Below are positions 3,345 to 13,507 of a stretch of DNA of 22,817 nucleotides, piece by piece. This DNA comes from Roseovarius sp. UBA3070. GTDB taxonomy: Bacteria; Pseudomonadota; Alphaproteobacteria; Rhodobacterales; Rhodobacteraceae. Every line of letters starts with the position of its first letter. The stretch's first letter is position 1. The notes under the pieces were generated by a model that saw only the letters and a list, made by a program, of their open reading frames with translations, was not told the origin of the DNA and ran no database searches. The translations under genes and the position numbers were made by a program. The stretch spans positions 1 to 22,817 of the forward strand of contig DFBW01000092.1 in assembly GCA_002366775.1 (NCBI GenBank), read 5' to 3'.

Positions 3345-6300
3345 ATGACTTTCCCACATCATATCACCGTCAGTGGCGCGCCCGAGGGCTATGACGCTCA
3401 GCTGATCCTGCGCGAGATTGAAAAGACCGGCGCGCCGGTTTGCCATGTGGCACGTGATGACAAACGCATGGCCGCCATGGCCGAGGCCCTGCGGTTCTTT
3501 GCCCCTGATATGCCTGTTGTGCAGTTCCCTGGTTGGGATTGTCTGCCCTATGATCGCACATCGCCCAATGCTGATATTTCGGCGGCGCGTATGGCCACGC
3601 TGGCGGGGCTGGTGCATCAGATGCCCGGCCAATATGTGCTGCTGACCACGTTAAATGGCGCCACGCAACGTGTGCCTGCCCGCGAAGTTTTGCGCGAGGC
3701 GGCCTTCAAGGCGCAGGTGAACTACCAAATTGACGAGTCGGCCCTGCGCGCCTTTCTGACCCGAATGGGGTTTAGTCAGGCCCCCACCGTGATGGAGCCG
3801 GGTGATTATGCTGTGCGCGGTGGAATCATTGATATTTACCCCCCCGGAGACAGCGGCCCGGTGCGGCTTGATCTGTTTGGCGATGTGTTGGATGGCATCC
3901 GCCGGTTTGACCCGGCAACCCAGCGCACCATCGAAAAACTGGATGTGATCGAACTGGCGCCTGTGTCTGAGGTGATCCTGGATGAGGCCGCAATCACCCG
4001 GTTTCGCCAGAACTACCGCGTTGAATTTGGCGCCGGGCGAGGCGAAGACCCCCTATATGAGGCCGTCAGTGCCGGGCGCAAACATCAAGGTGTTGAGCAT
4101 TGGCTGCCGTTTTTCCACAAGACGCTTGAGACATTGTTTGACTATTTGCCAGATGTGACCATCAGCCTGGATGATCAAATGGAGGCGGCGCGCCTGGCAC
4201 GTTGGGAAGCTGTGGCGGATCAATACGGCGCGCGCCAACACGCAATGACCCAAAAGGGGCGCGATGATACGGTGTATAAACCGATTGCGCCTGAATTGCT
4301 GTATCTTGATGATAGCGCATGGAAGGCGGCAGTGGGCGATCGCCGCGTGCTGAAGCTGGTGCCTTTGCCACAGGCCCTGGGGCCGGGGGTGATTGACGCG
4401 GGCGGGCGAATCGGCCGTGATTTTGCACCCGAGAGACAGCAAGAAAGTATCAGCCTTTTCGGGGCGTTAAAGGACCATATTAATGCGCGATTGGCCGAAT
4501 CTCCGGTGCTGTTGGCGTCCTATTCTGAGGGCGCGCGCGAGCGTATGGAGGGCCTGCTTGAGGATGAGGGGCTGATCGGATCTGTCACGGTGCGCGACGC
4601 CGCCGCGATTGGCCGCCATGGCTTGCACCTGGCGGTTTGGCCGCTGGAACATGGCTTTGCCGCGCCCGATCTGACGGTGATCTCAGAGCAAGATATCCTG
4701 GGTGATCGGCTGATCCGCGCCCCCAAGCGCAAACGCCGGGCCGAGAATTTCCTGAGTGAAGTGCAGAGCCTTTCACCCGGTGATCTGGTGGTGCATGTGG
4801 ACCACGGGATCGGCCGCTATCACGGCATGGAGGTGATCACGGCGGCAGGGGCTGCGCATGAGTGTCTTGTGCTGGAATACGCCGAGGCCGCGAAGCTGTA
4901 TTTGCCTGTGGAAAACATCGAATTGCTGAGCCGTTATGGGCATGACGAAGGGCTGCTGGACCGATTGGGTGGTGGGGCCTGGCAATCCAAGAAGGCCAAG
5001 CTGAAGGAACGCATCCGCGAAATGGCGGACAAGTTGATCCGGATTGCAGCCGAGCGCGCCCTGCGCCGTGCCCCGGTGATGGCACCCGAGCATCACGCCT
5101 GGGAAGAGTTTGCCACCCGGTTTCCGTATCAGGAAACTGATGATCAACTGCGCGCCATTGAGGACGTTCTGAATGATCTGGAAGCGGGCACGCCGATGGA
5201 TCGGCTGATTTGCGGCGATGTGGGGTTTGGCAAAACCGAAGTGGCCATGCGCGCGGCCTTTGTCAGTGCGATGAGCGGCAAACAGGTGGCGGTAATTGCC
5301 CCGACAACATTGCTGGCGCGCCAGCACTATCAGAGCTTTGCCGAGCGGTTTCGCGGGTTTCCCGTCACGGTGCGCCCGCTCAGCCGGTTTGTCACCGCAG
5401 GCGAGGCCAACAAAACCCGCGAAGGCATGGCCAACGGGCAGGTCGATATTGTGATCGGCACCCATGCGCTGCTGGCCAAAAACATTCGGTTCAAGGATCT
5501 GGGCCTGTTGGTGATCGACGAAGAACAACGCTTTGGGGTGGGCCACAAAGAGCGCCTGAAAGCGCTGCGCAGTGACGTGCATGTGTTGACCCTGACGGCG
5601 ACGCCCATTCCGCGCACCTTGCAGCTGAGCCTGTCAGGCGTGCGTGATCTGAGCATCATCGGCACGCCCCCCGTAGACCGCCTGTCGATCCGCACCTATG
5701 TGAGCGATTTTGACTCGGTGACAATCCGTGAGGCCCTGTTGCGCGAGCATTATCGCGGTGGGCAGTCGTTCTATGTGGTGCCACGGATCAAAGACCTGCC
5801 GGAAATCGAGGAATTCCTGAAAACGCAGGTGCCAGAAGTATCGTATGTGGTGGCACACGGCCAGATGGCTGCGCGTGATCTGGATGACCGGATGAATGCC
5901 TTTTATGACGGCAAATACGATGTGTTGGTGGCCACGACGATTGTCGAATCGGGGCTTGATATCCCCACGGCCAATACGATGGTCATCCATCGGGCGGATA
6001 TGTTTGGGCTGGCGCAGCTCTATCAAATCCGCGGCCGAGTGGGGCGCTCAAAAACCCGCGCATATGCCTATCTGACGACCAAGCCGCGTGTGCCGCTGAC
6101 GCCCAGTGCCCAAAAACGGCTGCGGGTTTTGGGCTCGCTTGATACGTTGGGGGCAGGATTTACACTGGCCTCGCAAGACTTGGATATTCGCGGCGCAGGC
6201 AATCTGCTGGGCGAAGAACAATCCGGCCAGATGCGCGATGTGGGATACGAGTTGTACCAATCCATGCTGGAAGAGGCGATTGCCAAGATCAAAGCCGGGG

Positions 6301-11121: not shown

Positions 11122-11763
11122 TTAGGGCTGGCGTGGCAAGCCGACACCAATCATGGAATCGCGCGTCACCAATTCCGCCAGTTCGCCCTGAGACAAATCA
11201 TCCGTACCAGCCGGGCGCGCGGGCAACACGATATAGCGCATGTCAGCGGTGCTATCGTGGACGCGCAGCGTTGTGGTGTCGGGCAGGTTGAGGCCGAATT
11301 CACGCAACACCGCGCGCGGTTCAGACACAGCCCGCGAACGATACGCGCGGGTTTTGTACCAATCAGGCGGTAGGCCGAGCAGATTGCGCGGATAACAACT
11401 GCACAAAGTACACACGATAAGGTTATGAATTGTATCGGTATTTGCGACGGCAACCAGGTGCATTGGGCCGATGTCAAACCCCATGTCACGGCTGGCAGTC
11501 GAGGCGTCGGCCAAAAGCTGCGCTTTGAAATCCGGGTCAACCCAGGCGCGCGCGACAACTGCGGCACCGTGCGACGGGTTACGCGCATCCATCGCATCAA
11601 TCTGGGCGGTGATGTCGGCTTGGGCTAAATGGCCCTTTTCCACCAGAATTTCACGCAGGGCGATTTCCATGGTTTGCCAATAGGTGAGTGGCTCGTCATT
11701 GTCGGGGCGAAACGGATGGCCCGAAGGGCTGAGATTGTCATGATCATGATGGTCGTGGGGCAT
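11122..11763 (-). CDS. Nitrile hydratase alpha subunit / thiocyanate hydrolase gamma-type subunit, Co-type
   Basis: A 213-residue metal-binding subunit. The claw-setting motif VCTLCSCYP has Cys118, Cys121 and Cys123; CTLC with Thr is the low-spin cobalt form (Fe enzymes have Ser there). The downstream sequence (LGLPPDWYKTRAYRSRAV, VHDSTADMRYIVLPARPAGT, LVTRDSMIGVG) matches the alpha family closely. Nitrile hydratase hydrates nitriles to amides; the related thiocyanate hydrolase converts thiocyanate to carbonyl sulphide and ammonia. The N-terminus is histidine-rich (MPHDHHDHDN), which could bind metal. The ATG at 11763 is chosen because the family's N-terminal region (YWQTMEIALREILVEKG) follows and a GGAAAGGG lies upstream; the open frame to 11946 overlaps the beta-C gene. 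It is the last of three tightly packed genes in beta-N, beta-C, alpha order. Confidence 0.92.
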   Translation of the reverse strand: MPHDHHDHDNLSPSGHPFRPDNDEPLTYWQTMEIALREILVEKGHLAQADITAQIDAMDARNPSHGAAVVARAWVDPDFKAQLLADASTASRDMGFDIGPMHLVAVANTDTIHNLIVCTLCSCYPRNLLGLPPDWYKTRAYRSRAVSEPRAVLREFGLNLPDTTTLRVHDSTADMRYIVLPARPAGTDDLSQGELAELVTRDSMIGVGLPRQP

Positions 11764-11767
11764 CTGT

Positions 11768-12031
11768 TCAGACCCTTTCCAGCCAATGGTCGTAAACTTC
11801 GGCATCGATGGTGTCGGCAGGGTTTTCGGCGTTATCTCCCCAGACTTCTGCCATGGTAAAGCGGACACGATACAGCGGTTTGGGATCTGCCTTGTGACGA
11901 TACGCCAATTGTTCGGGGTTAGCGAAATTGCCCAAATCCCGCTCAATTACGCCGGTTTTGCCGCGCAGATAATACGGCGCACGCACATGGCCCGGTGGAT
12001 AGATGGCTTTGATGCGCACATGCTCAGCCAT
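11768..12031 (-). CDS. Nitrile hydratase beta subunit, C-terminal (SH3-like) half as a separate protein
   Basis: An 87-residue protein equal to only the C-terminal beta-barrel of nitrile hydratase beta: VRIKAIYPPGHVRAPYYLRGKTGVIERDLG, then PLYRVRFTMAEVWGDNAE and a short tail. HVRAPYYLRGKTG and YRVRF...WG are family hallmarks; the second contains an arginine region that contacts the oxidised cysteines of the alpha subunit in known structures. The full-length beta subunit has this domain fused to a helical N-terminal half; here that half is the gene just upstream. The ATG at 12031 overlaps the upstream gene's stop by eight bases (ATGGCTGA), which suggests translational coupling, and the stop lies four bases before the alpha gene's start. 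Stand-alone SH3-like halves are known in thiocyanate hydrolase (alpha subunit) and toyocamycin nitrile hydratase. Confidence 0.88.
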   Translation of the reverse strand: MAEHVRIKAIYPPGHVRAPYYLRGKTGVIERDLGNFANPEQLAYRHKADPKPLYRVRFTMAEVWGDNAENPADTIDAEVYDHWLERV

Positions 12032-12362
12032 TGTTGGCCTCGCCATATGTGGGGCCGCGCGCCTGAACTTCGGCCATGCGGGTGCCCAGCTCTTCCAGGG
12101 TATAGAGCCCGGCTTCAATCAGGTTTTGATTGATCGAGGCGATCCATCGTTCGTAATAGCTGTATTTTTCAAAGGTGTCCTCGCCCATATCCTCAAGCGC
12201 GCGGCGCAGCCCGTCAACGCTCAGAAATCCCTTGTTGCCACATAAGACCATCAGCGCATCCACGCGTTTTTCCCATAGGGCAAAGTCGTGACCTTCCATT
12301 GGGATGGGGCCTGCGGGCATACCGCCCATATCGTGCCATCGGCGTCCGTCTGTATCGCTCAT
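12024..12362 (-). CDS. Nitrile hydratase beta subunit, N-terminal half (or activator-like protein)
   Basis: A 112-residue protein equal to the helical N-terminal half of nitrile hydratase beta: WHDMGGMPAGPIPMEGHDFALWEKRVDALM (residues 9-38, by position) followed by a helical region with DGLRRALEDM and KYSYYERWIASINQNLIEAGLYTLEELGTRM. HDxGGM and SYYERW are family hallmarks. It stops before the SH3-like domain, which is the next gene, overlapping by eight bases. This protein could be a structural subunit, as ScnB is in thiocyanate hydrolase, or a cobalt-inserting activator of the P14K/P15K type, since those activators are homologous to this same half. No separate activator gene lies in the window, so it may do both. 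The ATG is at 12362-12360; the FliG-like gene ends 56 bases upstream. Confidence 0.85.
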   Translation of the reverse strand: MSDTDGRRWHDMGGMPAGPIPMEGHDFALWEKRVDALMVLCGNKGFLSVDGLRRALEDMGEDTFEKYSYYERWIASINQNLIEAGLYTLEELGTRMAEVQARGPTYGEANNG

Positions 12363-12418: not shown

Positions 12419-13507
12419 TTATTCGTCCCCAGACTCTTCGGGGATCAGCAGGGTAATGTCGCCACTGGCCTCTAACGTGCGGATGCCGTTGATAACAGCC
12501 GTCATTGCCTCTTCGCCATCCTGCGTTTTGATTTGGCCCATTTCGCTCATTTCCTCGCGCAAACCATCGGCCATGCGGGTGGACAGGTTTGAGAGCACGA
12601 ATTCTGAGGCGGCCGCCATGTCATCACCGGCATCACTGGCAGCCTTTAGGGCCGTGGCCAAAACACTTTGGTCCACTTCACGGATGGCCTTGGGAATATC
12701 CAGCGCCTTGAGGCGTTCGGGAATATTGGTGAAGGTGAAAATGGCGCGCCGCACCAGTTTGGCAAATTCTTCATCTGTTTCATCCAGCCCCACCAGCACA
12801 TCATCACGGGTGATCGCGGGCGAGAAATTGAGGATGGCACCGACACGTTCCACCGGGCCGTCGGCAAAGGCGGTTTCGGGGAGGTCATGCAATTGCGCGG
12901 CCAGTGACAGCCCGATGCGATCAACTGCGTCAGGGGTCACCGATTCGGTGCGTGACATTTCAAGAGCAATCTGGCGGGCGGCGCGGCCGGGCAGGCGGCC
13001 CAGCAAATCTGCTGCGCGCACCACCTCAAGTTTGGAGAGCATAACGGCAGCTACCTGGGTGCTTTCAGTTTCCAGGATTGGCAATAACTGCTCAGGTTCC
13101 GCCTTGCAGACCTGACTCCAGGGATCACCAAATTGGCGCACACCGGCCTCTTTGCGCAGCCGGGCGGCGGTTTGCGGGCTGATGCGCCCGTCCAGTGCTG
13201 ATAGTGCCCCCGATACACCACGCGGAAAGACAAGGCCCATGGCCTCAATTTCATGGGCGAACTCGGCCACGACATCGGCCAAGGTGGAGCGATCAACATA
13301 GCGCATGGACCCCATCTGCGTGGTTAACCGCGCTTGCAATGGTTCGGGCAGGTCGGTCAGGGGCACTTCAGCGCCTTCGTTCAGCAAAAACCGCACGATA
13401 ATGGCGGCCTTTTGCTGTCGGGTCAGGTGATCTGCGCCTGTGCGCGCAGGCCTGTGACCGGGCATTTGAACAGGCTCAATTCGAGCCAAAGGAAGAGGGT
13501 CGGACAT
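12419..13507 (-). CDS. fliG: Flagellar motor switch protein FliG, divergent and isolated
   Basis: A 362-residue FliG-family protein. FliG links the MS ring to the C ring and receives torque from the stator. The N-terminal helical domain starts at about residue 27 (HLTRQQKAAIIVRFLL). The middle domain has AEPEQLLPILETESTQVAAVMLSKL (136-160), where the usual EHPQ is ESTQ (148-151). The C-terminal torque domain shows FTFTNI (257-262), PKAIREVDQSVLATALKAAS (272-291) and STRMADGLREEM (309-320): a lysine, Arg311 and the Glu318-Glu319 pair stand where E. coli has Lys264, Arg281 and Asp288-Asp289. The charge pattern for torque is therefore kept. Other flagellar genes are not next to it. An AAAGGCG lies about eight bases before the ATG at 13507. 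It may share a transcript with the three genes downstream. Confidence 0.82.
   Translation of the reverse strand: MSDPLPLARIEPVQMPGHRPARTGADHLTRQQKAAIIVRFLLNEGAEVPLTDLPEPLQARLTTQMGSMRYVDRSTLADVVAEFAHEIEAMGLVFPRGVSGALSALDGRISPQTAARLRKEAGVRQFGDPWSQVCKAEPEQLLPILETESTQVAAVMLSKLEVVRAADLLGRLPGRAARQIALEMSRTESVTPDAVDRIGLSLAAQLHDLPETAFADGPVERVGAILNFSPAITRDDVLVGLDETDEEFAKLVRRAIFTFTNIPERLKALDIPKAIREVDQSVLATALKAASDAGDDMAAASEFVLSNLSTRMADGLREEMSEMGQIKTQDGEEAMTAVINGIRTLEASGDITLLIPEESGDE

Follow-up and report, generated by a model that had tools for sequence, protein, structure and literature searches.

A putative three-subunit, cobalt-type nitrile hydratase with a split beta gene and no TIGR03889 activator in Roseovarius and its relatives

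Genes and junctions of the operon

Based on the open reading frames and the sequence, three genes lie head to tail on the minus strand of the window (the whole 22,817-nucleotide stretch of Roseovarius sp. UBA3070 DNA analyzed here), bN first, followed by bC and then alpha. The features referred to below, in which NHase stands for nitrile hydratase and SCNase for thiocyanate hydrolase, are as follows.

12362..12024, minus strand: AnhD-like bN gene, 112 aa, for the helical N-terminal half of nitrile hydratase beta
12201..12206, minus strand: bN Arg53-Arg54, with Arg53 corresponding to NHase beta Arg52 and Arg54 as in SCNase
12031..11768, minus strand: AnhE-like bC gene, 87 aa counted from the ATG at 12031, for the SH3-like C-terminal half of nitrile hydratase beta
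12024..12031, minus strand: overlap of 8 bases between the bN stop and the bC start, ATGGCTGA
11981..11983, minus strand: bC Arg17, corresponding to NHase beta Arg157
11764..11767, minus strand: gap of 4 bases from the bC stop to the alpha start
11763..11122, minus strand: alpha gene (AnhA-like), 213 aa
11395..11412, minus strand: CTLCSC codons, cobalt-type metal-binding motif, alpha Cys118-Cys123
11386..11388, minus strand: alpha Arg126, directly after CTLCSCYP, corresponding to NHase alpha Trp116 and SCNase gamma Arg136

The bC start was taken as the ATG at 12031, and a longer frame of 116 aa begins at an upstream TTG. The alpha protein has an N-terminus rich in His and Asp, and its full metal motif is VCTLCSC. 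The three genes are translationally coupled; the eight-base junction of the initial annotation is indeed an overlap between bN and bC, whereas its four-base junction is a gap and not an overlap.

Each product matches its expected Pfam profile well above the cut-off: bN PF21006 (NHase_beta_N, 71.5 bits, cut-off 21.5), bC PF02211 (NHase_beta_C, 78.4 bits, cut-off 27.7) and alpha PF02979 (NHase_alpha, 260.6 bits, cut-off 27.2). The two beta halves cover complementary stretches of TIGR03888 (positions 3–101 by bN, 130–226 by bC), and neither reaches its cut-off of 152.2 bits (59.9 and 74.1 bits). The label of a classical fused-beta nitrile hydratase was rejected, since no single beta polypeptide exceeds that cut-off and the genome, which is incomplete, has no match to the activator model TIGR03889; on the window bN itself, TIGR03889 gives no match at E<=0.01. 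The alpha protein passes the nitrile hydratase alpha model TIGR01323 by a margin of just 2 bits (251.8 against 249.85), and its relatives in a Roseovarius bin (L003) and in strain CCS2 (L026) score 256.3 and 255.3. On TIGR03887 (thiocyanate hydrolase gamma) it obtains 192.7 bits, under the cut-off of 291.45, whereas the two SCNase loci used as positive controls reach 359.2 and 356.8. Separately, alpha proteins themselves give matches to the bN profile in their N-terminal helices, at about 20–61 bits (for example, in L114), which hints either at a distant kinship of the parts or at profile drift.

In the window genome (76.87% complete) alpha, bN and bC are each matched once, and the Roseovarius bin L003 is the closest named relative among the 492 loci encoding a relative (alpha 95% identical). 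In the best 80 loci the neighbors of the operon resemble housekeeping genes, and no conserved amidase or cobalt uptake gene was found beside it, so that the genomic context gives no substrate. A FliG-like protein (window 12419–13507, minus strand; 138.2 bits on TIGR00207, whose cut-off is 226.7) adjoins the operon, and its relative occurs near the operon in 37 of these 80 loci.

Distribution of the split beta gene and of the activator gene

In the best 80 named loci of the 492, all three genes are complete in 78, and all 78 have the split in the order bN, bC and alpha; in the other two, bN was not found and the contig stops upstream of bC. When the start codon closest to the preceding stop is used, bN and bC share 8 bases in 55 of the 78 loci and 4 bases in 14 of them. 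In one locus (L049, a Paracoccaceae bin) about 0.75 kb separates bN from bC, and this interval (about 4975–5740) holds a reading frame whose product resembles a GH19/lysozyme-type enzyme. The separate genes for the beta halves reported in the initial annotation are thus borne out by the Pfam and TIGR domains and by all 78 complete loci, and the sequencing error that it had named as a possible refutation does not apply: the split is neither chance nor error, and it is old and stable.

Among 198 Rhodobacteraceae genomes, 102 have a bC match: 31 hold split copies only, 70 a fused beta, and in one (G148) the beta frame of a classical-type locus is broken (L202). All 31 split-only genomes (loci: the window, L115, L116, L118–L121 and L177–L201) read bN, bC and alpha in separate frames. 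Of the 70 fused genomes, 20 were read as L083–L102 and one as L117, and the other 49 were called by an open frame of at least 210 aa around bC. Two genomes counted as fused (G127 and G128) also have a split copy (L122 and L123), and in another with a fused-type enzyme (G112) a broken split-type bC copy was seen (G112:C2:66456-66680, L124).

The missing activator gene, a point absent from the initial annotation, was followed in the same 198 genomes with TIGR03889 (counts compiled by hand from the match tables). The window genome has no match, which is weak evidence alone at 76.87% completeness. None of the 31 split-only genomes has a match over the cut-off, some of these assemblies being incomplete and others 99–100% complete; the sole weak match (G143, 21.7 bits) is that genome's own bN. 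In the fused-beta genomes, by comparison, TIGR03889 is matched at E<=1e-3 in its own frame in 69 of 70 (over the cut-off in 63), the exception being G059, and the broken locus genome G148 also has a match in its own frame.

At the class level, bC occurs in 142 of 385 genomes and an activator over the cut-off in 80 of 385. Among 20 class regions chosen for low bC scores or short frames, 19 have bN, bC and alpha with no activator-like gene, and the remaining one (L153) has a split beta plus an activator. Ten others (L125–L134), chosen for paired bC matches or short frames, include nine with an activator-like gene and one (L134) with the layout of the window; five of the ten (L125, L126, L127, L129 and L133) are alpha-first split-beta operons in which an activator-like domain is fused to an extra bC. 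Some class genomes hold both kinds, such as G571, in which the activator lies beside a separate classical locus (L203), and in L164 the activator-like match is weak (38 bits). Because four fused loci (L117, L204, L205 and L206) also have no TIGR03889 gene, the split kind is not alone in lacking it. On plasmid pUSP2 of Aminobacter sp. MSH1 (L170, 4022–5698), a split beta with an activator lies next to an amidase and CbtAB, and both beta halves are annotated merely as SH3-like proteins.

The layout of the window was also found on a Streptomyces plasmid, followed there by genes for an aquaporin and a nickel/cobalt transporter, on a Planktothrix plasmid, and in three loci from another order of the phylum (L155–L157). 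The three-gene layout is common among these bacteria. In both plasmid records bN and bC are labeled 'SH3-like domain-containing protein' or 'nitrile hydratase', and recognition of the layout would improve such annotations. In one further locus (L147), an additional bN copy (4043–4312) precedes a complete split operon by about 1.3 kb.

Alpha phylogeny and active-site residues

A maximum likelihood tree of 102 hand-chosen alpha domains (203 columns; bootstrap incompletely settled), including 16 of the 81 rows from named loci plus the window, has one branch (UFBoot/SH-aLRT 100/99) that parts 30 classical rows from 72 others. The classical side consists of 20 fused and 10 split rows with activator, although L117, grouped with the former, is without one. 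On the other side are 48 split rows, that of the window among them, together with 11 full fusions, six bN-alpha fusions, three bC-alpha fusions, two bC-alpha-bN operons and two thiocyanate hydrolases, and the window falls within a 19-row clade of split Rhodobacteraceae-type rows (100/99). A recent fission within ordinary fused nitrile hydratases, which the initial annotation had proposed to test by a tree, is therefore not the case. The separating branch recurs (SH-aLRT 99) in a quick tree of 130 rows, from which SCNase and the long row L121 were left out and to which 26 split rows, two activator-bearing rows and three fused rows without activator were added; these last three fall on the classical side. 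Among the sampled rows, TIGR03889 activators are confined to one side of the tree. The activator contrast represents one inherited difference, and not repeated independent changes, in a tree that is unrooted.

The bN tree, built on 97 columns and poorly resolved, groups 26 of the 28 activators in a separate branch (SH-aLRT 93); the bN of the window belongs with the beta N-terminal halves and is one of them by descent. Natural bN-alpha fusions number 30 among 232 proteins (one of them, P0121, looks frame-disrupted), and the fusion P0129 is predicted as a confident single unit (pLDDT 85.3, pTM 0.81), a model that fits a bN-alpha pre-complex. Named eukaryotes or eukaryote collections are the source of nine of the 11 full fusions, and metagenomes that of the other two (P0181 and P0240); in the quick alpha tree ten of them lie together and P0347 lies apart.

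Residues were counted in 113 split rows (81 are the named loci plus the window, many of them near relatives; 111 for bN, as two split loci are without it) and in 30 classical rows. The cysteine claw CTLCSC, as part of the cobalt-type motif VCTLCSC recognized in the initial annotation, is invariant in 113 of 113 split rows. Two arginines are common to both kinds: bN Arg53 (111/111 split, 30/30 classical) and bC Arg17 (113/113 and 30/30), which we take to be the places of beta Arg52 and Arg157 in the numbering of the Pseudonocardia enzyme. The titles of structure entries include mutants of both.

Two other arginines separate the kinds. The position after CTLCSCYP (alpha Arg126) is Arg in 109 of 113 split rows, in all six bN-alpha fusions and in both SCNase rows, whereas the classical rows have Trp (29/30) or Phe (1/30). 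Likewise, 108 of 111 split rows and both SCNase rows carry Arg at the place of bN Arg54, as against 0 of 30 classical ones, which have His (23), Tyr (5), Trp (1) and Phe (1) there; both bN arginines align with consecutive arginines in SCNase beta (2dd4_B). The equivalents of alpha Arg126 and bN Arg54 presumably lie in the substrate pocket. At the former place, Arg and Trp have already been swapped by crystallographers in both enzymes (entry titles 3vyg, 'Thiocyanate hydrolase mutant R136W', and 3vyh, 'aW116R mutant of nitrile hydratase'), and the R136W change of 3vyg is visible in the sequence comparison. The nine-residue insertion of SCNase gamma before the metal motif was found in both SCNase rows and in 0 of 113 split rows, and this, together with the failure at TIGR03887, ruled out the label thiocyanate hydrolase. 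Judged from sequence, the window protein is thus SCNase-like in these two arginines, yet no SCNase by model or insertion.

Interpretation and known systems

The closest published architecture is that of Streptomyces canus CGMCC 13662, as compared by description, that is, by gene order and the missing activator. This nitrile hydratase (ScNHase) is described as a cobalt enzyme encoded by anhD, anhE and anhA, with no activator, in which AnhD and AnhE are partial peptides of the beta subunit; it assembles as AnhD2E2A2, hydrates acetamiprid and matures in vitro without an activator (PMC7329996). According to the same source, AnhD is a structural part of beta as well as a metal and swapping chaperone, and the loaded AnhD2A passes alpha to the cobalt-free AnhD2E2A2. 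As gene order, missing activator and motif all agree, this mechanism is the best-supported reading of the window, and we infer from it the assembly, the cobalt, the chaperone role and the substrate of the window enzyme. The enzyme is probably (about 0.66) an activator-free three-subunit nitrile hydratase of the cobalt type, in which bN doubles as metallochaperone and a small nitrile is the substrate. The separately made bN would bind newly made alpha and let cobalt enter CTLCSC, two of whose cysteines would become oxidized; bN would then join bC, or swap the loaded alpha into bN-bC-alpha, so that the three products assemble into one enzyme. The mature site, formed by the alpha cysteine claw, bN Arg53 and bC Arg17, would hydrate a small nitrile to the amide.

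We agree with the initial annotation that the sequence does not tell the substrate, and the context is uninformative. Nitriles are the most likely class, given the acetamiprid activity of the precedent and the alpha score above the TIGR01323 cut-off. Thiocyanate is a possible one because of alpha Arg126 and bN Arg54, the former at a place where the Arg/Trp exchange was made in both enzymes, and SCNase shares the window's side of the alpha tree. However, a thiocyanate hydrolase in function, or an enzyme acting on thiocyanate or another small anion, seems unlikely in view of the failed TIGR03887 model and the missing gamma insertion, and the same arginines occur in a Streptomyces relative whose layout is that of the known nitrile-hydrating enzyme. 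The three-part layout, which the initial annotation ascribed to SCNase and ToyJKL, is no defining mark of SCNase, given that the two loci passing TIGR03887 in this analysis (L168 and L174) have a single 283-aa beta-like gene. In these two loci, an unannotated gene of about 126 aa lies directly after scnC (L168 6741–7121, L174 about 4696–5076; 86% identical to each other). It weakly resembles bN and may be an activator of a different family, a candidate P15K-type chaperone; beside the window's relatives it matched only their own bN, which also speaks against an SCNase.

This small gene bears on maturation as well. The window could encode a nitrile hydratase of this layout in which bN is structural only and an unlinked chaperone of another family, which would escape TIGR03889, does the maturing; such a chaperone may exist because the SCNase loci apparently carry a small gene for their own use and TIGR03889 is likewise missing from the four fused loci. 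Indeed, the argument from missing TIGR03889 is weakened by that small gene and by the iron nitrile hydratase of Comamonas testosteroni Ni1, reportedly a further activator-free exception. Even so, we regard an unlinked chaperone as a shade more improbable than activity on thiocyanate, considering that natural bN-alpha fusions exist and that the S. canus enzyme, as described, matures in vitro with its bN as the chaperone (PMC7329996). Vestigial or regulatory proteins with no hydratase activity would suit the lack of a conserved catabolic neighbor, but are very unlikely where the metal motif, bN Arg53 and bC Arg17 are kept throughout the split rows. We thus retain the activator-free nitrile hydratase.

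A wider scenario, offered tentatively and at rather less than even odds, is that one lineage never had or lost the TIGR03889 activator and uses the beta N-half as a built-in chaperone. The three-gene operon of marine Rhodobacteraceae would be a common bacterial form of this lineage, the eukaryotic bN-bC-alpha protein an end-to-end fusion of such an operon, and SCNase a specialized member keeping the double arginine that was replaced in classical enzymes. Published activator-free exceptions are few, namely the S. canus enzyme, the eukaryotic fusions and the Comamonas testosteroni Ni1 iron enzyme. If the cobalt exceptions form one large lineage, it would offer many natural systems for activator-free cobalt insertion, a candidate bacterial origin for the eukaryotic fusions, and two defined residues with which to probe nitrile versus thiocyanate selectivity.

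Activator proteins have been called crucial for nitrile hydratases (PMC7329996). The activator-free three-subunit kind was already described in 2019–2020 for one species, and the window is a further member. What is new is the contrast of activator and split in Rhodobacteraceae, the tree side common to the eukaryotic and SCNase enzymes, and the two arginines; this architecture in Rhodobacteraceae, the activator contrast and the common tree side are undescribed in the titles and abstract openings searched, a scope with the subscription literature mostly outside it. Marron et al. noted that the beta of CCS2 'appeared truncated' and substituted that of another Roseobacter strain in their tree (PMC3323583); CCS2 carries a split bN/bC pair. 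A 2023 study counted proteins with at least 50% identity to an SCNase as SCNases and termed both families exclusively prokaryotic (PMC10098168), a view against which the full fusions from named eukaryotes speak. An auxin role should not be assumed, because a Phaeobacter nitrile hydratase beta mutant (architecture unspecified) still produces indole-3-acetic acid (PMC5148602).

In comparison with known systems, the classical cobalt nitrile hydratases (P14K, NhlE type) have the same Pfam domains, CTLCSC and catalytic arginines, but mostly a fused beta and a TIGR03889 activator, with Trp after CTLCSCYP and a place on the opposite side of the tree. The toyocamycin nitrile hydratase ToyJKL has three subunits. 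Two operons on Rhizobium and Azospirillum plasmids (L175, by annotation, and L172, by gene reading) have the order bC, alpha and bN, the former with CbtAB, cytochrome P460 and sulfite oxidase nearby. Thiocyanate hydrolase ScnABC (2dd4; L168 and L174) shares with the window the family fold, the side of the alpha tree, alpha Arg126 and the Arg-Arg of bN, whereas the window is without the gamma insertion and the small bN-like neighbor and fails TIGR03887. The eukaryotic bN-bC-alpha fusions share the domain order end to end and the tree side, and differ in being one polypeptide and in a residue after CTLCSCYP that is not fixed (in 11 rows Leu 4, Arg 2 and five others once each); the S. canus authors (PMC7329996) and a review describe them as having no known activator. 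The initial annotation had likened the architecture to that of SCNase and ToyJKL; SCNase does share the tree side and the two arginines, but the closest architecture is AnhD-AnhE-AnhA. ScNHase, although from another phylum and with a nitrile activity that is demonstrated where that of the window is predicted, shares with the window the order bN, bC and alpha in separate genes, the lack of an activator gene and the cobalt-type CTLCSC motif.
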